This document shows positions 29,321 through 37,023 of a DNA stretch of 64,000 nt, one piece after another (the first letter of the stretch is position 1; each line of letters opens with the position of its first letter). Both the position numbers and the translations under genes were made by a program. Under the pieces are notes generated by a model, which was not told where the DNA came from, ran no database searches, and saw only the letters and a program-made list of their open reading frames with translations. The DNA is from Thiohalospira halophila DSM 15071 (lineage in GTDB: Bacteria; Pseudomonadota; Gammaproteobacteria; Thiohalospirales; Thiohalospiraceae), in the NCBI RefSeq assembly GCF_900112605.1, contig NZ_FOMJ01000010.1:1-64000 (forward strand). Direction: 5' to 3'.

Positions 29321-29776
29321 TCATTCGGCCGGCACCAGCCGCGCCGTCTCCACCGTATCCAGATCGAAGTGGCGGTTTTCGCCCTCGACCTCCACCTCGA
29401 TCGTCTCGCCCTCGATCCCGAGGAGGCGGCCGCGGAACTTGCGCCGCCCCTCCTCGTCCGGGACCACCAGCCGGAAGCGGATCTCCTCGCCGACAAAGCG
29501 CCGGAACTGGTCGGCCGTAAACAACGGCCGGTCCAGCCCGGGCGAAGAGACCTCCAGATGATACTCGCCGCGGATGGGGTCCTCGACATCGAGGGCGGCG
29601 CTGACCTGATGGCTGACCTGCTCACAGTCGTCGATACCGACCCCCTCAGGGGCATCGATATAGATACGAAGAACCCGGCGCTTGGAACCCGTGAACTCCA
29701 CGCCCACGCACTCATAACCGAGGCCGGCCACGGCCGGCTCCACTACTGCCCGGATTGCTTCCGACGCCTGTCGCAC
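29321..29776 (-). CDS. rimP: Ribosome maturation factor RimP
   Basis: The 151-residue protein fits Rim[41 protein letters not shown], and [26 protein letters not shown] with the conserved EVSSPGxDRPL. An SH3-like C-terminal domain follows. It is needed for 30S assembly. It is the first gene of the nusA-infB operon. Its upstream leader holds two hairpin terminators and then the left boundary of the genomic island. Confidence 0.96.
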
Positions 29777-29846: not shown

Positions 29847-29869
29847 AAAAAAGGCCCCATGCGGGGCCT
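29847..29869 (-). terminator. Intrinsic terminator in the rimP leader (distal)
   Basis: On the minus strand AGGCCCC and GGGGCCT (29869-29863 with 29858-29852) form a 7-bp stem with a 4-nt loop, followed by a T run (29852-29847). It lies 14 nt left of the tRNA-like direct repeat at 29883. It most likely was the original terminator of the tRNA-fMet gene before the island separated them. Confidence 0.75.
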
Positions 29870-29882
29870 CGAGTTACGAATA

Positions 29883-29894
29883 TGGTAGCGGGGG
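29883..29894. repeat. Left attachment-site copy (attL core)
   Basis: The 12-nt TGGTAGCGGGGG is identical to the 3' end of the initiator tRNA gene at 36566-36577, but only the acceptor end is present. The sequence after it (TCAGGCTACGCACAC) no longer folds as a tRNA. An inverted repeat, ATCCAGCC (29925-29932) with GGCTGGAT (29943-29950), lies about 30 nt inside the island and may belong to the recombinase binding site. Confidence 0.7.
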
Positions 29895-30359
29895 TCAGGC
29901 TACGCACACAAGTTGCGACCGCCGATCCAGCCCTCGAAATCTGGCTGGATGCCCCTACCATGAACAACCCGTAGTCCAGCGCTGCGAACCCGAGGGAAGC
30001 AGGACTGACCCCATCCAGGGGAACCTGTTACCGGCGCGGCGCTGGCCGCCTACGTCATCGGCCCGTTCGCTCGATGTCCGTAGCCCGCTGATCATGCCCG
30101 CCAGCGCCCGCTGGGTCAACTCTTTTCAGCCATGAACCACAACGCGAGGGGCTATACGCAGTCCCGCCCGCGCACTTCACGCGTGAGGCACGTCCAGGAT
30201 ACGGACGACGGTCCGCATCTTGGCCCCATCACTTGCGGGCAAGCATTGGCCAAATCTTGCGCACCCTCCCCGCCGTGCCGCCTCGCACCGATACCGTTTC
30301 CCTTATTGCGGTTGGTAGATTCCTTCGCGACCCGACAACACCCCGTCATAAGGACGCCC
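29895..30359. other. Non-coding left arm of the island
   Basis: These 465 nt between attL and the first lipoprotein gene hold no supported gene. A longer frame in phase with the lipoprotein is open from 30132, but its residues do not look like protein and would spoil the lipoprotein signal peptide. An 8-bp inverted repeat at 29925-29950 is the only clear structure. The promoter of the lipoprotein gene should lie here. Confidence 0.5.
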
Positions 30360-31511
30360 ATGCACCGCCCGGACAGCACTCCCCTGAGCCGCACCCTAAG
30401 CCACCTCCTCGCCACCGCCGGCCTGCTCGCCGCCCTGGGCGGGCTGACCGGTTGCGACGACGAAAACGCCGGCGACACCACGGCGGCGGAGTCCACGTCC
30501 GAGGATTCGGAGAGTTCTGACTCGGAAGAAACCAGAACCCCGACCATCTCCGACATCTCAGCGGAGGACTCCCCCATCCTCCCGGGCGGGCAGGTTACCG
30601 TCTCGGTGGAGGCCGAGGGCGACGCCCTCGAACACGACTGGGACCTCCCCGAGGACTGGTCAGACTCCGGCAGCGACAGCGGCACCGAATCGGTCACCCT
30701 CACCGCCCCGGTCGACCAGGCCGCCGAGGCGACGATCTCGGTCACGGTGGAAAACAGCGCCGGCAGCACCTCCTCGGAGGTAACCGTAGCCACCCAGGGC
30801 CCGGCCATCGAATCCTTCGACGTCGACCCGCTCCCGGGGAAAGAGGGCGATACCGCCACCTTCACCACTGACGCCTACAACCGCGACGGGGCGGAGCTGA
30901 CCTACGACTACCGGATCGGCGGCACCCTGGGCGCCTCCAAGGAGGGTGCTGAATGGAAATGGACCGCGCCCGAAATGGCCATGGGCGGACGCTATCTCCT
31001 GGAGGGCATCGTCACCGACAGCGACGACCTCACCGCCACCGCTGGCGTCGAAACTACCATGAAGGGTGCCTCCGCCTGGCCCGCCTTCGGCGGCGACCGC
31101 CAGCGCTCCGGGCGAGGGTGGCCCACTCCGGATGCCGAGGGGGCCAAGGGCAATAAGAATTGGGTCTTCGAGGCCGGCAACTGGGTCGATTCCTCCCCTG
31201 CCATCGGCGCCGACGGCACCGTCTACGTAGGCTCAGATGATAGTAAGGTTTACGCCCTCGACCCCGGCGACAGCTCCGAGCAGTGGGCCTACGATACCGG
31301 CGACTGGATCAAGTCCTCCCCGATCATCGGCGTCGACGACACCGTCTACGTGGGCTCCAACAACGGCAACGTCTACGCCCTCGACCCCAACACTGGCGAC
31401 AAAGAGTGGGCCTACAAGACCGGCGACTCAGTCTGGTCCTCCCCGGCCATCGGCGCCGACGGCACCGTTTACGTGGGCTCCTACGACACCAAGGTCTACG
31501 CCATCGAATGA
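30360..31511 (+). CDS. Lipoprotein with two Ig/PKD-like domains and 3 PQQ-type repeats
   Basis: The 383-residue protein has a lipoprotein signal peptide ending LGGLTGC. An acidic Ser/Glu/Asp linker and two beta-sandwich-like domains (TISDISAEDSPILPGGQVTV...; AIESFDVDPLPGKEGDTATF...YNRDGAELTYDYRIGG) follow. The end of the protein has three 41-residue PQQ-type blades (SSPAIGADGTVYVGSDDSKV, ALDP, W) ending at VYAIE. Three blades cannot close a propeller alone. The downstream neighbour is a paralogue with eight. AAGGACGCCC precedes ATG 30360. It should be anchored in the outer membrane or inner-membrane outer leaflet; the function is unknown. BamB-like scaffolding is only one possibility. Confidence 0.8.
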   Translation: MHRPDSTPLSRTLSHLLATAGLLAALGGLTGCDDENAGDTTAAESTSEDSESSDSEETRTPTISDISAEDSPILPGGQVTVSVEAEGDALEHDWDLPEDWSDSGSDSGTESVTLTAPVDQAAEATISVTVENSAGSTSSEVTVATQGPAIESFDVDPLPGKEGDTATFTTDAYNRDGAELTYDYRIGGTLGASKEGAEWKWTAPEMAMGGRYLLEGIVTDSDDLTATAGVETTMKGASAWPAFGGDRQRSGRGWPTPDAEGAKGNKNWVFEAGNWVDSSPAIGADGTVYVGSDDSKVYALDPGDSSEQWAYDTGDWIKSSPIIGVDDTVYVGSNNGNVYALDPNTGDKEWAYKTGDSVWSSPAIGADGTVYVGSYDTKVYAIE

Positions 31512-31646
31512 CGAAGCGGTCCAGGGCGGGCCGAGGGGCCACCTTGCCGGAGTGGGCGGTGGGGCGGGTGCCCTGCAACCCGCCGGACTCGGCGAAAAGC
31601 TAGGCGCCCGACCACCAACCACAACCGAGACAGCGGACCGGACGCC

Positions 31647-33374
31647 ATGAACCCGAAGAGCGCATTCCAAGCTATGCCGGCTCCCCTCACTTTTCTTCTT
31701 ACCACTGCCGGCCTGCTCTCCGCCCTGGGCGGGCTGACCGGCTGCGAGGACTCGGATTCAAGCTCCGAGGGGAACAGTGCCCCGACCATCTCCGACATCT
31801 CCGCCGAGGGTGCACCCATTCTCCCGGGCGGCCAGGTAACCGTCTCGGTGGACTCCGAACGTACTGACGGGCAGAGCCTCGACTACGACTGGTTCCCTCC
31901 GGCGGGCTGGTCCGGCCCCGACAGCAGCACCAGCTCCATCACCCTCACCGCACCAAAGAAGCAGGCTGCCCAGGGGGAGGTCGTGACGTATGCCTGTGAC
32001 GAGGATGAACGCTGCGCGAAGGCGGCCATCGAGATCGCGACTCGGGGGCCAGCCATCGAGTCCTTCCAGGTCGACCCGCTGCCGAAGGAGGCTGGCGACA
32101 CCGCCACATTCACCGTGGACGCCTACAACCGCGACGGCCGGGACCTGACCTACGATTATCGGATCGGGGGCACCCTCGGCGCCTCCAACCAGGGTGAGGA
32201 ATGGGAATGGACCGCGCCCGAAATGGCCATGGGCGGTCGCTACCTCCTGGAGGGCATCGTTACCGACAGCGACGATCTCACCGCGACGGCGAGCACCGAG
32301 ACGAAGTTCAAGAGCGCCGCCGTCTGGTCCACCTTTGGCGGCAACCGCCAGCGAACCGGACAGAGCCAGAGTGCGGATGCCGAAGGGGCTCAGGACACCA
32401 TCAAGTGGGAATACTCCACTGGCGATCTGGTGTGGTCCTCGCCGGCCGTCGGTCCCGATGGAACGGTCTATGTGGGCTCGGACGATGACCACGTCTACGC
32501 CCTGAACCCCGACGACGGCTCCGAGAAGTGGTCTTTTGGCACCGGCGGCGCGGTTCGGTCCTCCCCGGCCATCGGCGCCGACGGGACTATCTATATCGGC
32601 TCTTATGACAACAAGGTCTATGCCCTAGACCCCGACACTGGCGACAAAGAGTGGTCCTTCGAGACCGATAATTCGGTTCTCGCCTCCCCGGCGGTAAGCG
32701 CCGACGGTACGGTCTACATCGGTTCGACCGACCACCACCTCTACGCCCTGGATCCCGAAAGCGGCGACGTGGAGTGGAAGGTCGAGACGGGTGATCCGAT
32801 CTTCTCCTCACCCACCCAGGGAGCGGACGGCACCATCTATGTCGGCTCCGATGATGGCCACCTCTACGCCCTCGACCCCGAGGACGGGCAGGAGCGGTGG
32901 CGGTTCAAGACCGGCGACGATGTCCAGTCCGCACCGGCCATCGGCCCCGATGGCACGGTCTACTTCGGATCCAACGACCACAACCTGTACGCCCTCGATC
33001 CCGAGGACGGCACTGAGCAATGGCGCTTTGCCACGGGAGAGGGGATTCTTTCATCCCCGGCTGTCGCAGCCGACGGCACCATCTATGTCGGGTCCAGCGG
33101 CGGTAACTTCTACGCCGTCGATCCCGATACCGGCGAGGAAGAGTGGCGCCACACCACGGGGAACACGAACCGCTCTTCGCCGGCCATCGCAGCGGATGGA
33201 ACTATCTACCTCGGCTCTAATACTTCCGGCCTCTACGCCCTGGATCCCGAAAACCGCGGCGAGAAATGGCGAGTCGACCAGATTGGCGATGTCTCCTTCT
33301 CCTCGCCGGCCATTGGGCCCGATGGCACCGTCTACATTGGCTCGTGGGACAAGTCCATCTACGCCATCGAGTGA
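31647..33374 (+). CDS. Lipoprotein with two Ig/PKD-like domains and 8 PQQ-type repeats
   Basis: The 575-residue protein parallels the previous one. The lipobox is LGGLTGC, the linker is DSDSSSEGNS, and the two sandwich domains share near-identical stretches (TAPEMAMGGRYLLEGIVTDS). Eight 41-residue repeats follow (pattern SSPAIGADGTIYIGSxDxxVYALDPDTGDKEWSF) ending YAIE. Eight blades match a closed beta-propeller of the PQQ/BamB class. No catalytic residues of quinoprotein dehydrogenases are evident, so a binding or scaffold role is more likely. Both paralogues are followed by CGAAGCG just after their stop codons, so the duplicated unit extended past the gene end. Confidence 0.82.
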   Translation: MNPKSAFQAMPAPLTFLLTTAGLLSALGGLTGCEDSDSSSEGNSAPTISDISAEGAPILPGGQVTVSVDSERTDGQSLDYDWFPPAGWSGPDSSTSSITLTAPKKQAAQGEVVTYACDEDERCAKAAIEIATRGPAIESFQVDPLPKEAGDTATFTVDAYNRDGRDLTYDYRIGGTLGASNQGEEWEWTAPEMAMGGRYLLEGIVTDSDDLTATASTETKFKSAAVWSTFGGNRQRTGQSQSADAEGAQDTIKWEYSTGDLVWSSPAVGPDGTVYVGSDDDHVYALNPDDGSEKWSFGTGGAVRSSPAIGADGTIYIGSYDNKVYALDPDTGDKEWSFETDNSVLASPAVSADGTVYIGSTDHHLYALDPESGDVEWKVETGDPIFSSPTQGADGTIYVGSDDGHLYALDPEDGQERWRFKTGDDVQSAPAIGPDGTVYFGSNDHNLYALDPEDGTEQWRFATGEGILSSPAVAADGTIYVGSSGGNFYAVDPDTGEEEWRHTTGNTNRSSPAIAADGTIYLGSNTSGLYALDPENRGEKWRVDQIGDVSFSSPAIGPDGTVYIGSWDKSIYAIE

Positions 33375-33892
33375 ACGAAGCGCTCGCGCATATGGCTCCC
33401 GGCTGCCGGCTCCGACAGCCACCGGGCCCGCCGTGCGCCTACTCTGCTGACCGTGCCCAGGGCGCCGGACCCGCCCGAGGAGTCCTTCGAGAGCAGGCCC
33501 GCAAGGGGGCATCCGCAGTCCCGTCTGCACCCGTCACGCCGGGGGCACGCATCAGCTCACCAGGGTCGCGACCCTTGCGAGAGGCGGAGGTCCCCATGAC
33601 GGGGCGGATAGCGGTTAACCGACTTTACCATGGCCGCCCACCTAAAAGCCCCGCATGGCGGGGGTGGAGCGCGGTTAGCGCTTCCCCCCAACCAGTTAGG
33701 ATCTGGTGTGCGCGCAGCGACGGCCCCTGGACTCCAGCGGCAGCCCCTTGGCCAGGGCCGTTCCCACTCGCCGCCGGGCCTGGCACCGTTGGCCAGTGCA
33801 CTGGCAGGGACATGACATCTAGACCCGCGTACCTGATGCCAGCGGGCAAGACGATCTTGGAGGGTGTAACAGAGGGCCTTGGGGTAGAGCCT
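33375..33892. other. Intergenic stretch between convergent island genes
   Basis: 518 nt separate the 8-blade lipoprotein gene (+) from the two-TM gene (-). I see no gene here. The only clear element is a minus-strand terminator-like hairpin at 33649-33663; the rest is GC-rich without coding character. Confidence 0.5.
33644..33663 (-). terminator. Terminator-like hairpin for the immA/two-TM unit
   Basis: CCCCGC (33649-33654) pairs with GCGGGG (33658-33663) around a 3-nt loop. On the minus strand it is followed by a C and then TTTT (33647-33644). It lies about 230 nt beyond the end of the two-TM gene, the last gene of that minus-strand unit. Confidence 0.5.
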
Positions 33893-34273
33893 TCAGCTCT
33901 TCCCTGGAAGAAGAGCCACCAGCTCCCGGGCCAAAGCCTGGATCGGTGTGGTGTCGTCGCGCTGATTCTGGTCCTGGGCATTCCGGGCGAACACATACCG
34001 GAGAAGGGCCAGGGCGAGCACCGTCGGGATGGCAGCCAGTACCACGACGATGGTGACCCGCTCGCTCGTCGAGGTCGCCGTTCCGAGGAAGATGTAGCAC
34101 AGCAGCGCCAGGAGCATCACGACGACGATACCACCGATACTTCGGAACAGGATCCGTCGCTGCTCAAGAAGCTCCGTTCGCTCGCTGATCTCGAAATCCC
34201 AGAGCCTGACTTCTCCTTCAGGGAGCTGCCCCTCGGAGAGATCATCCGGTTCCGTGGAGTCTACGTCAGCCAT
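33893..34273 (-). CDS. Two-TM membrane protein paired with the ImmA/IrrE peptidase
   Basis: The 126-residue protein has an acidic cytoplasmic-looking N-terminus (about residues 1-43, rich in Asp and Glu, with ISERTELLEQRR). Two close TM helices (GGIVVVMLLALLCYIFLG, about 47-64; VTIVVVLAAIPTVLALALL, about 73-91) follow, then a short polar tail. Its ATG (34273) lies inside the 3' end of the peptidase gene, overlapping by 13 nt, so the two proteins are made together. I do not recognise the family. A membrane-bound target or regulator of the peptidase is a reasonable inference. Confidence 0.7.
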   Translation of the reverse strand: MADVDSTEPDDLSEGQLPEGEVRLWDFEISERTELLEQRRILFRSIGGIVVVMLLALLCYIFLGTATSTSERVTIVVVLAAIPTVLALALLRYVFARNAQDQNQRDDTTPIQALARELVALLPGKS

Positions 34274-34752
34274 CCCAGATTCTTGAGGCGGTATTTCATG
34301 GCAACCTGGGAGACCTGCATCTTCCTGGCCAGCTCGGCCAGGTCCGTGATGCCCTTCTCCTGGATGAAGTACCGAATCGCCAGCTCCGGCATCAGCACTT
34401 CGGCGGCGAACTGGTTAGCCTCGCGCTCCCGTGGGTCCGTCGCGTGGCTGGAAAAATGGCTGGGGTCGTCCCGGAAGACGGTTTCCTTGCTGCTGGCGTG
34501 ACCCAGGACGTGATGGCCCAGCTCATGCGCCGTAATGAAGCGTCGGCGGACCAGCGGCTCGCTTAACACATACCGGATGGTGCCCTCCCCGCCCGCATCG
34601 ACCTCGTAGCAGCCGCTCGCGCTGTCGGCTCCGGGGATGGACTGGACAGGCTTCACGCGCACCCCGGCAGCATGGGCGAGCGCGTCCACATCCACCGGCA
34701 CCGTGCGGTCCCAGTGGCGCTTCATGAACTCCTTGGCGGTCTTTGCAGGCAT
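34261..34752 (-). CDS. ImmA/IrrE-family metallopeptidase
   Basis: The 163-residue protein contains the zinc-binding motif FITAHELGHHVLGH followed by EREANQFAAEVLMP, the HExxH and ExxxNxFAAxLLMP pair that defines the ImmA/IrrE (DUF955) family. The C-terminus (DLAELARKMQVSQVAMKYRLKNLG) resembles a small helix-turn-helix-like tail that is common in the group. Such enzymes cleave repressors to induce mobile elements (ImmA) or stress genes (IrrE/PprI). No Xre-type repressor gene is present in the island, so its substrate is unclear. It is followed and overlapped by the two-TM gene. Confidence 0.88.
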   Translation of the reverse strand: MPAKTAKEFMKRHWDRTVPVDVDALAHAAGVRVKPVQSIPGADSASGCYEVDAGGEGTIRYVLSEPLVRRRFITAHELGHHVLGHASSKETVFRDDPSHFSSHATDPREREANQFAAEVLMPELAIRYFIQEKGITDLAELARKMQVSQVAMKYRLKNLGWLT

Positions 34753-34776
34753 GGCGGTTCTTCGGTTCCGGGGGAA

Positions 34777-34791
34777 TCAAGCTCGGCTTGA
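34777..34791. promoter_or_regulatory. Perfect 6-3-6 palindrome upstream of the ImmA-like gene
   Basis: TCAAGCTCGGCTTGA has exact 6-bp arms around TCG. It is followed at once by the 8-bp palindrome CTCATGAG (34792-34799). It lies 25 nt upstream of the peptidase start and within the divergent region shared with the recombinase (34753-35000). This is a good position for an operator controlling the island, but no regulator is known. Confidence 0.4.
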
Positions 34792-35000
34792 CTCATGAGC
34801 CAGCGTAACGACCATGCCTTTAGAGTTCACGGTCTGTCGCAATCTTTCCGGCGCCCGTTACCGCCCTCTCGACCGCCCCGGTTATCATCCCTTGTGAGCA
34901 ACCGCGAGGCGGCCAGGAATCCGCGCCGCCGGTCGGGCCGACCCCTTGGTCATCCAGTGCCCGGGAAGGAGCACAGCAGCCCACACGGAAGGCACACGCC

Positions 35001-36565
35001 ATGAAGCATACCCTCCGGATCGCGGCCTACTGCCGCTACAGCTCCGAGCAGCAGAACGCCAGCTCCATCCAGGACCAGCTCCGCAACTGCGAGCGCTACG
35101 CCCAGCAGCAGGGGTGGCCGGCGCCGACCCCCTACACCGACGAGGCCGTCAGCGGCTCCCTGCGGGACCGGCCCGGCTACCAGAAGATGCTCGCCGACGC
35201 CGAGGAGCGCGTCTTCGACATCCTCCTGGTCGACGACCTCTCCCGCCTCTCCCGCGACCAGGTGGAGACGGCCCAGGCCACGCGGATGCTGCGGTACTGG
35301 GGTGTGCGCCTCATCGGCGTGTCCGACGGCACCGACACCGACCGCCGGGGCCACAAGATCGAGGTGGGCCTGCGCGGGCTCATGTCGGAGCTGTACCTGG
35401 ATGACCTGGCCGAGAAGACCCACCGGGGGCTCACCGGCAAGGCGTTGTCCGGCTACAGCGCCGGCGGCCTCCCCTACGGCTATCGCTCCCGGGAGACCGA
35501 CAAGGGCCATGTGCGGGAGATCGATCCCGACGAGGCCGAGTGGGTGAACTGGATCTTCGAGCGCTACGCCGACGGCTGGAGCCCGCGTCGGATCGCTTCC
35601 GAGCTGAACAGCCGGGGTGTCCCCGGCCCTCGCGGCCGCCAGTGGGGCCAGACCGCGATCCGGCCCGACACCAAGCGCGGCGTCGGCCTGCTCATCAACC
35701 CGCTCTACAACGGGCAGCAGATATGGAACCGCTCCCAGTGGGTAAAGGATCCGGTCACCGGCCGCCGCCAGCGCCGGGAGCGGCCCATGGACGAGTGGGT
35801 GATCACCGAGAACGAGGAGACCCGGATCGTCGCCCCGGAACTCTGGAACCGGGTGCAGGCCCGGATCCGGGCCGTCCAGGAGAAGACCCGGCAGCGGGCT
35901 CGCGGCGGCCGCCCGGGTCGCCACGGCCGCGGCTCCCCCTACATCTTCTCCGGCCTGCTCCGCTGCGCCGAGTGCGGGGCCAGCTACGTCATCGTCAGCG
36001 CCCGGGACTACGGCTGTGCGACGCACAAGGACCGGGGGCCGGCCGCCTGCTCCAACAACCACCGGGTCCGCCGTGAGCATCTGGAGGAGCGGCTGCTGAC
36101 CGTGATCCGCGACGATCTGCTCACCGAGGAGTCCTTCGAGACCTTCATGGACATGGCCCGGGAGGCCATGGAGGAGAGTCAGCCGGACCCCTCCGCCATC
36201 CGCAAGCGGCTCCAGGAGGCCGAGCGCGAGCGCGACAACCTGGTCCAGGCCATCCGGCAGGGGATCGCCTCACCGGCGGTGAAGGAGGAGCTGGAGCAGG
36301 CGGAACGGACGGTGAAGGCCGCCCAGGAGGAGCTGACCGCGGCCGAGAGTCTGGCCGGGGATGGGGTGGCCACCCTGCTCCCCCGGGCTCGCGAGCGCTT
36401 CAAGGCGCTTGCCGATAGCCTCCGGGAGTCGGTGGACCCCGACGTGATGCGCCAGACCCTTTCGGAGGTCACCGGCCCCATCGACCTGGAGCCGGACCCG
36501 CAAGTTGGTGTCATATGGGCAAAAATAAACGCAGGCTCCATAATGGAAACCTGCGTCAATTATGT

Positions 36566-36587
<22 letters not shown>
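35001..36587 (+). CDS. Large serine recombinase (site-specific integrase of the island)
   Basis: The 528-residue protein has an N-terminal resolvase domain (RIAAYCRYSSEQQNAS with catalytic Ser14; VDDLSRLSRDQVE). The recombinase domain (GGLPYGYRS, DEAEWVNWIFERYADGWS, SELNSRGVPGPRG) and a zinc ribbon (LRCAECGASY, GCATHKDRGPAACSN) follow. A long coiled coil (about residues 390-450) comes next. It should integrate and excise the island by double-strand exchange at the att cores. The last seven codons (VGSGGRI, stop at 36585-36587) lie inside the tRNA-fMet sequence, so the C-terminus is completed by the target site. Codons shortly before that overlap a minus-strand terminator. Confidence 0.9.
36521..36555 (-). 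terminator. Island-borne terminator for tRNA-fMet, inside the recombinase 3' end
   Basis: On the minus strand CGCAGG (36555-36550) pairs with CCTGCG (36535-36530), with an inner CCAT/ATGG stem. It is followed by TTTATTTTT (36529-36521). It begins 11 nt after the CCA of tRNA-fMet, in the right place and direction to end that transcript. The same bases encode recombinase residues on the plus strand. Confidence 0.7.
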
Positions 36588-36642
<55 letters not shown>

Positions 36643-36693: not shown

Positions 36694-37023
36694 TCATTTC
36701 CAGCCCCGGTGGCGCTGCAGCAGCGGGCGGAACTGGTAGCGCCAGACGAACGCCGGTGCCGCGAAGACGGCGAACAGGGAGAGCGTCACGGCGTAGAACT
36801 CCCAGTCCTGATCATGGATGTCGCCGATGGCCCGGTTTTCGGCCCCGAGCGCCAGACCACCGACGATCAGGTAATAGACGAACCACTCCGCGAGCCGCAA
36901 CCACGCGCCCTTTCGCCCGCCCGGCGGCTCGAAGACAAAGAAAAAGAGATCGCTGATCCACGGCAGGTTTGCCAGCACCAGCGCGATTCCTATCAGCGCC
37001 CACACGAGGACGGTCTGTTCCAT
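36694..37023 (-). CDS. DUF2818 family membrane protein
   Basis: The 109-residue protein has three hydrophobic helices (VLVWALIGIALVLANLPWIS; WFVYYLIVGGLALGAENR; FYAVTLSLFAVFAAPAFVW) and ends in a basic tail (YQFRPLLQRHRGWK). It matches the DUF2818 pattern, whose genes commonly follow nuoN. It starts 2 nt after the nuoN stop, so it belongs to the complex I transcript. A role linked to complex I is inferred from this position only. Confidence 0.85.
   Translation of the reverse strand: MEQTVLVWALIGIALVLANLPWISDLFFFVFEPPGGRKGAWLRLAEWFVYYLIVGGLALGAENRAIGDIHDQDWEFYAVTLSLFAVFAAPAFVWRYQFRPLLQRHRGWK

Follow-up and report, generated by a model that had tools for sequence, protein, structure and literature searches.

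Can a large serine recombinase (LSR) use the initiator transfer RNA (tRNA) gene as its chromosomal target? The question is raised by a 64,000-nucleotide stretch of Thiohalospira halophila DSM 15071 (contig NZ_FOMJ01000010.1, positions 1 to 64,000; hereafter the window), in which a block at positions 29883–36577 lies between rimP and the gene for the initiator tRNA (tRNA-fMet) and carries an LSR gene. A tRNA-island database paper of 2015 (Islander, PMC4383910) states, in the part cited here, that use of tRNA genes is not known for serine integrases. Our analysis leads to the conclusion that the block is very probably an integrated mobile element, that its enzyme is an LSR and that its target is the 3′ end of tRNA-fMet. 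It further points to a clade of related integrases that use tRNA-Met and whose C-terminal tail, by sequence, is exchanged upon integration.

An island at the 3′ end of tRNA-fMet

The sequence TGGTAGCGGGGG forms a 12-nt direct repeat with exactly two copies in the window, both on the + strand, at 29883–29894 and 36566–36577, delimiting a repeat-to-repeat unit of 6,683 bp. The right copy, assigned as the core of the right attachment junction (attR) from ARAGORN and the repeat match, with the crossover placed from the symmetry of the phage attachment site (attP; see below), coincides with nucleotides 66–77 of a 77-nt tRNA-Met(CAT) at 36566–36642 on the − strand, which is intact including its CCA. 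The left copy, the putative core of the left junction (attL), matches this tRNA 3′ end exactly and would represent its displaced counterpart; it stands immediately after a terminator-like hairpin with a T-run (29847–29869, − strand; identified by eye), downstream of the original tRNA site and on the host side of attL. The anticodon arm of the tRNA, GGGCTCATAACCC, is of a type that we take to mark initiators, and a whole-genome search returned it as the sole initiator tRNA gene, the three further matches being partial and lying within tRNA-Pro (two) and tRNA-Arg (one). Composition alone predicts about 0.03 occurrences of the exact 12-mer (by arithmetic); with one mismatch allowed, shuffles gave a mean of 0.67 matches per 64 kb, and 12 of 100 shuffles contained at least two. 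Because near matches are this frequent, the repeat by itself is weak evidence, and it is the position of its copies that carries weight.

The left flank of the island is rimP (29321–29776, − strand; PF02576 and PF17384) and the right flank is a DUF2818 gene (36694–37023, − strand; PF10993); beyond them lie genes that, judged from their translations only, are presumably nusA and infB on the rimP side and nuoN and nuoM on the other. A search of 144 genomes, including that of the window, detected rimP in 133, and the 30 best loci were fetched. Within the fetched 1.5 kb beside rimP, tRNA-Met is present in 23 of the 29 non-window loci, in all 23 with the initiator anticodon arm. Nine of these fetched loci belong to the same family (the G002 locus was unfetched and G005 had no rimP match): eight are empty sites with tRNA-Met ~150–230 bp from rimP, and the ninth (G008) has tRNA-Leu instead. 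In G047 and G088, two of the six rimP loci without tRNA-Met, the recombinase homologue sits on tRNA-Met elsewhere in the assembly. Joining the window flanks in a script yields an intact tRNA adjoining the terminator-like hairpin; by eye, a similar hairpin precedes the tRNA 3′ end at six of the eight same-family empty sites and is not evident in L009 and L023.

Between the repeats, the integrase gene (35001–36587, + strand) encodes a 528-aa protein that matches a PHROG integrase and carries Resolvase (PF00239), Recombinase (PF07508) and zinc-ribbon (PF13408) domains in that order. Ser14, which we take to be the catalytic serine near the N-terminus, is invariant across 20 aligned rows. A structural model of a relative, L120, rather than of the window protein, contains a helix at residues 363–412, forming a long C-terminal coiled coil, and its matches in the PDB include serine integrases. 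Judged from sequence, the window enzyme is a large serine recombinase, predicted to catalyse recombination between attP and the bacterial attachment site (attB). Its stop codon falls 22 bp inside tRNA-fMet, in the T-loop, so that its final codons are antisense tRNA-fMet. As in the tRNA islands of Islander, an intact tRNA stands at one end and a displaced tRNA fragment at the other, the integrase lies between them, and empty sites occur in relatives (8/9 of the same-family loci fetched); unlike those islands, which in the part of the paper cited here are restricted to tyrosine integrases, this one carries a serine recombinase and shares a core of only 12 nt (PMC4383910).

A preliminary description of the window, made from the sequence alone, had placed the 12-nt repeat at both ends with its right copy as the acceptor end of tRNA-fMet, which the exact matches and ARAGORN confirm, and had seen in the block a large serine recombinase, as the Pfam domains now attest. 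Its view that the island separates tRNA-fMet from rimP agrees with the tRNA-Met kept beside rimP in 8/9 same-family loci. It had also pointed to two checks in other genomes: empty sites, which are present in relatives, so that the contrary case it raised (no empty sites among them) does not apply, and the same recombinase at tRNA-fMet elsewhere, which is borne out by the homologues described next.

Target and attachment site of the integrase clade

Among 11 near-full-length homologues of the integrase (38–58% identity), 10 have tRNA-Met(CAT) at the integrase 3′ end; in the eleventh, L062, the contig ends while the integrase is still inside the tRNA. When genomes of the class (377) and of the phylum (396) were searched with profiles, 9 of the former and 32 of the latter had a match at E <= 1e-60, with three genomes common to both. 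At this threshold, 36 genome loci were fetched, including the window's own and three of the 11 near-full-length homologues, and six matches were left without a fetched locus. The integrase overlaps tRNA-Met(CAT) in 23 of the 36 (20 initiator, 3 elongator). A control set of 26 weak-match loci, several of which are short resolvases, had no tRNA-Met at the frame end and a single tRNA-Glu, at an LSR-like frame (L056). The viral set comprised 254 loci, 245 with a usable open reading frame (ORF), and alignment queries were more productive here than single-protein scans. In a FastTree phylogeny of 182 rows, which has long branches and is labelled from C-terminal peptides rather than per-row tRNA calls, 161 rows lie on one side of a 99% branch, including every row with a tRNA-Met-type tail or a phage-form tail (defined below); 13 of the 161 have no recognised target. 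None of the 21 outgroup rows has a tail of either kind, and two viral LSRs among them overlap other tRNAs (L274, Arg; L277, Leu). On these comparisons, tRNA-Met, usually the initiator, is the mark of this LSR clade.

Because L056, L274 and L277 overlap tRNA-Glu, -Arg and -Leu, tRNA targeting by serine integrases is not confined to the clade, which does not lower the main claim. The regions concerned in these distant recombinases are L056:998-1073 (Glu), L274:2973-3049 (Arg) and L277:2946-3032 (Leu). Further outgroup tails (L268, L273, L278 and L280) resemble antisense tRNA by eye, and the use of tRNAs by serine integrases may be more frequent than supposed. Inside the clade, position or tail suggests elongator tRNA-Met or tRNA-Thr for L179, L181, L184, L185, L191, L207 and L258; a change of tRNA target seems to have taken place within the clade.

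In the clade, as the sequences show, attP lies within the 3′ end of the integrase gene, its core being part of the coding sequence, and the tail of the protein is altered on integration. In integrated copies the gene continues into the tRNA in antisense and has its stop at one of two places. With the stop over the anticodon (...VAGAGFEPATFGL*, the asterisk marking the stop), the tRNA spans −43 to +33 relative to it; with the stop in the T-loop (...GSGGRI*), as found for the window, G146, G088 and G212, the tRNA spans −21 to +55. In phage-form copies, in which no tRNA follows the core, the gene continues into different sequence and ends in a short basic/hydrophobic tail (48 unique rows). A sort for cores with no tRNA T-arm within the following 30 nt had returned 58 rows, and 10 were removed by hand before counting: those with no real core (L108, L285), those at other tRNAs (L139, L258) and those with a T-loop stop (L296, L325, L327, L329, L348, L357). 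The preliminary description, whose reading of the island is supported, had overlooked both the attP inside the integrase gene and the change of tail.

The exchange is displayed most directly by near-identical integrases that occur in both states and diverge at the core: L120/L122 (99.4% over 519 aa), L085/L089 (98.8% over 518 aa) and L090/L095 (95% over 505 aa). Two prophages retain both junctions. In Dyella lutea, where the cores are 47.9 kb apart, VAGAGFEPATFGL is found at attR and VAGARFELYLTEPLRVLIPRSESAKVTHE (...YLTEPLRVLIP...) at attL; in Arenimonas caeni, where they are 41.8 kb apart, VAGAGFEPATFGL is found at attR and VAGAGFGAYLAAEPVRIQLGRV (...YLAAEPVRIQLGRV) at attL. Each attL carries a displaced tail like that of the phage form, the reciprocal product of the exchange. 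The viral records L102 and L151 have a similar two-core layout (L151 with both cores in its own locus) and are weaker examples, since ARAGORN calls no intact tRNA in them; L102 is also the one success in a search of two virus records for a second core. The more distant Rhizobium phage RR1-A (32% identity) has a sequence resembling the core and, after it, a tail that is not tRNA.

Several individual records have unusual layouts. Two attL-like cores stand in tandem at L102:1943-2113, and at L138:2680-2786 a phage-form-like tail is followed by a tRNA-type tail in one integrase frame, as if a second insertion or a duplication had taken place. L388 (NZ_CP088281.1), a conjugative plasmid of Bradyrhizobium barranii, has a tRNA-encoded integrase tail and, by eye, only a tRNA gene fragment. 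L359 (IMGVR_UViG_2551306416_000003) has a phage-form tail and a record number resembling that of an isolate genome; it is perhaps an excised or extrachromosomal prophage.

Symmetry of attP is a trait of the LSR family. The 48 phage-form attP sites have inverted-repeat arms centred on GCGGGG|G (the bar marking the centre), with a mean arm identity of 0.47 versus 0.21–0.30 at 19 other centres, and this is the best centre in 29 of the 48. As the arms are symmetric about this point, we infer a crossover at GG, between the 4th and 5th G, at what we take to be tRNA positions 66/65.

The phage-form tail itself has, by sequence comparison, a protein-coding substitution pattern. The codon test used a gap-free alignment of all 13 phage-form rows of one 30-row clade. 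In the integrase frame the proportions of synonymous (pS) and nonsynonymous (pN) differences were 0.56 and 0.30, versus pS/pN of 0.32/0.40 and 0.36/0.38 in the other sense frames. Column shuffles were as extreme in 1 of 2000 cases, likewise for the distal half alone, entropy was highest at third codon positions (1.24 vs 0.73 and 0.69), and dropping any single row changed little. Tail length is 9–23 aa in 47/48 rows, the remaining one being at least 50 aa, and the mean charge is +0.18 per residue vs 0.03 and 0.04 in the other frames (48 tails, not mutually independent). AlphaFold folded the free tail of L120 into a short strand (predicted local distance difference test score 66 over the last 8 residues) and gave none for the tRNA-encoded tail of L122 (score 34), a comparison that is only suggestive given unequal alignments of 32 and 20 rows.

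Competing explanations and the state of the window copy

In the mechanism that we propose, the LSR would insert the element at an attB formed by the 3′ end of the initiator tRNA gene, with strand exchange at the central GG, at the acceptor/T-stem junction. The element would supply its own copy of tRNA positions 66–76 (the acceptor 3′ strand plus CCA), so that the essential tRNA stays whole. In the integrated state, the gene of the clade takes its last codons from the antisense strand of the tRNA, up to one of the two stops named above; in the unintegrated state, it continues into the other end of the element and has a different short tail. That unintegrated tail may be a functional part of the enzyme during integration, and its loss may help to stabilise the integrated state. 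We offer only as a tentative proposal, well short of an even chance, that the exchange is a built-in switch, in which a selected basic/hydrophobic tail strand of the phage form is needed for integration into the initiator tRNA and insertion swaps in a tRNA-encoded tail.

The exchange could also be a functionless by-product of an attP located at a gene end, the phage tail being retained as a harmless end, and we regard this as quite possible, if somewhat below even. The same kind of exchange takes place in streptococcal integrative and conjugative elements (ICEs) that target rumA, with no function assigned to it in the part of that report cited here (PMC4701971), and the integrase gene is still open in the window and in three further cases where it ends in the other frame; against this stand the coding substitution pattern and narrow length range of the phage tails, and the similar basic/hydrophobic ends shared by phage-form members in different reading frames (RRYRVA*, RRFRLK*). 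It is most improbable that the phage-form tails are instead attR junctions at other, non-tRNA insertion sites. The rows do derive from assembled viral contigs, few of which have known ends, yet their arms are inverted repeats about the core, the tail type is common to different phage contigs, and similar tails are present, displaced, at attL in integrated prophages. For the window, a chance 12-nt repeat, with the left boundary elsewhere and a recombinase that merely neighbours the tRNA, would fit the weakness of 12 nt taken alone and a left arm unlike the family P′ arm; but the left copy lies where relatives have the tRNA 3′ end, adjoining the terminator-like hairpin, ten homologues end within tRNA-Met, and Dyella and Arenimonas share the two-core layout, and we give this explanation hardly any credence.

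Several observations weigh against integration at tRNA-fMet with an exchanged, selected tail. No tRNA-Met overlap was found in 13 of the 36 fetched genome loci: L191 lies 172 bp from an elongator tRNA-Met, L179 overlaps tRNA-Thr, L167 has a tail of the tRNA-fMet type and no intact tRNA call, and the remaining 10 have no tRNA, one of them running off its contig. Of nine bacterial genomes, only two (Dyella and Arenimonas) yielded an exact second core on the expected side of the same contig, and another set of five yielded none; contig ends or diverged cores may be responsible. The codon test draws on a single clade (13 sequences), one of the antisense frames is also mildly coding-like (pS 0.48, pN 0.34; weaker, in the same direction), and the basic/hydrophobic motif present in 29/48 tails, vs 4 and 1 in the other frames, was picked post hoc. 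The genus had no second representative among the relatives searched. A scan of the island's five main ORFs for mobility genes (all 5 against Pfam, 3 against PHROGs, and 4 against PADLOC and NCBIfam) detected no virion, relaxase, phage or conjugation gene. The predicted attP of the window is symmetric at 3/19 positions at the family centre and at best at 9/19, at another centre; and the integrase enters the core one frame off, in a minority frame, such that a circle would add a tail of ~80 aa vs far shorter ones in relatives.

These last points concern the window copy in particular. Its displaced P′ arm (29885–29974, + strand) reads VAGVRLRTQVATADPALEIWLDAPTMNNP* in the clade's majority frame, and the nearest homologue of its integrase, L061, uses the other frame. 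Excision would restore neither a family-type tail nor a symmetric attP. With a left arm that is asymmetric and out of frame, the copy looks partly decayed and may no longer be mobile. We consider it rather probable that the block is a dead relic: a serine-integrase island that was once mobile but now has a decayed left end and is fixed in place, perhaps kept for its lipoproteins or not at all. The state of the P′ arm, the small size (6.7 kb with five main genes) and a composition without island signal (GC content 0.64–0.71 in 1-kb steps, like the chromosome) favour such a relic, whereas the uninterrupted 528-aa integrase with its catalytic serine and the still identical 12-nt cores count against it.

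Besides the integrase, the unit holds an M78 peptidase, a small membrane-like protein and two beta-propeller lipoproteins. The ImmA/IrrE-type (M78) metallopeptidase is CapP-like (34261–34752, − strand; PF06114, 6.6e-17; PADLOC capP, 8e-24), and its gene overlaps that of the small protein (33893–34273, − strand), which has two hydrophobic stretches, judged by eye to be a likely membrane protein, and no family match in Pfam, PHROGs, PADLOC or NCBIfam. No CapH-like regulator was identified beside this overlapping pair (33893–34752); the two could form a defence or regulatory pair. The lipoprotein-like PQQ-type beta-propeller protein (31647–33374, + strand; Pfam) has a lipobox, LTGC, recognised by eye, and is preceded by a shorter paralogue (30132–31511, + strand; Pfam), whose start is probably the ATG at 30360. 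These two PKD/beta-propeller lipoproteins (30132–33374) are 62% identical, and elsewhere in the genome there is only a distant 33% match.

Relation to known integrases and implications

Well-known LSRs such as the Bxb1, PhiC31 and Listeria integrases target protein genes. The clade resembles them in its domains, in a matching predicted fold (that of a relative) and in a short core within an inverted-repeat attP; it differs in that its attB is the initiator tRNA and its attP lies inside the integrase gene. Integrases of SSV-type archaeal viruses likewise have attP in the integrase gene and a gene changed by integration, but they are tyrosine recombinases whose gene is split, whereas the clade consists of serine recombinases whose gene is re-tailed. 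In the integration-dependent immunity of mycobacteriophages, the junction also alters the C-terminus of a phage protein and attB is sometimes at a tRNA gene; in the part of that work cited here the altered protein is the repressor, whereas in the clade it is the integrase itself (PMC8092301).

The precedent for the exchange is found in the rumA-targeting streptococcal ICEs, in which the attachment repeat lies in the integrase 3′ end, the 3′ ends of target and integrase are swapped, and the C-terminus of the integrase is altered (PMC4701971). The clade shares with them the direct repeat in the integrase 3′ end and the C-terminal change on integration; unlike the clade, these ICEs target a protein gene and occur in other hosts, and neither selection on the tail nor a function for it is reported in the sections cited. 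Because these ICEs already exchange integrase tails, we regard the clade as of a known kind: the initiator tRNA target combined with the tail swap is a new variation on it. In a 2022 LSR survey (PMC10083194), target genes were analysed as proteins and tRNA is unmentioned in the main text, as far as the portions cited extend. We found no report of serine integrases in initiator tRNA in the open-access literature, in so far as its texts were available, and the tables of TIGER/Integrase-On-Demand (PMC12424338, PMC12884075) may list such sites; absence of reports is not proof of absence.

The published statement that no use of tRNA genes by serine integrases is known is answered by a widespread clade at the initiator tRNA, which every bacterium needs. 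The clade offers integrases with a near-universal landing site that leave an essential tRNA whole. As the same enzyme occurs in nature with two tails, the clade also lends itself to asking what keeps a serine integrase from reversing its own reaction. If the tail exchange does act as a switch, the integrase of the lysogen would be a different enzyme from that of the phage and would recombine less unless helped by a directionality factor, and the most essential tRNA gene would serve as landing site and off-switch together.

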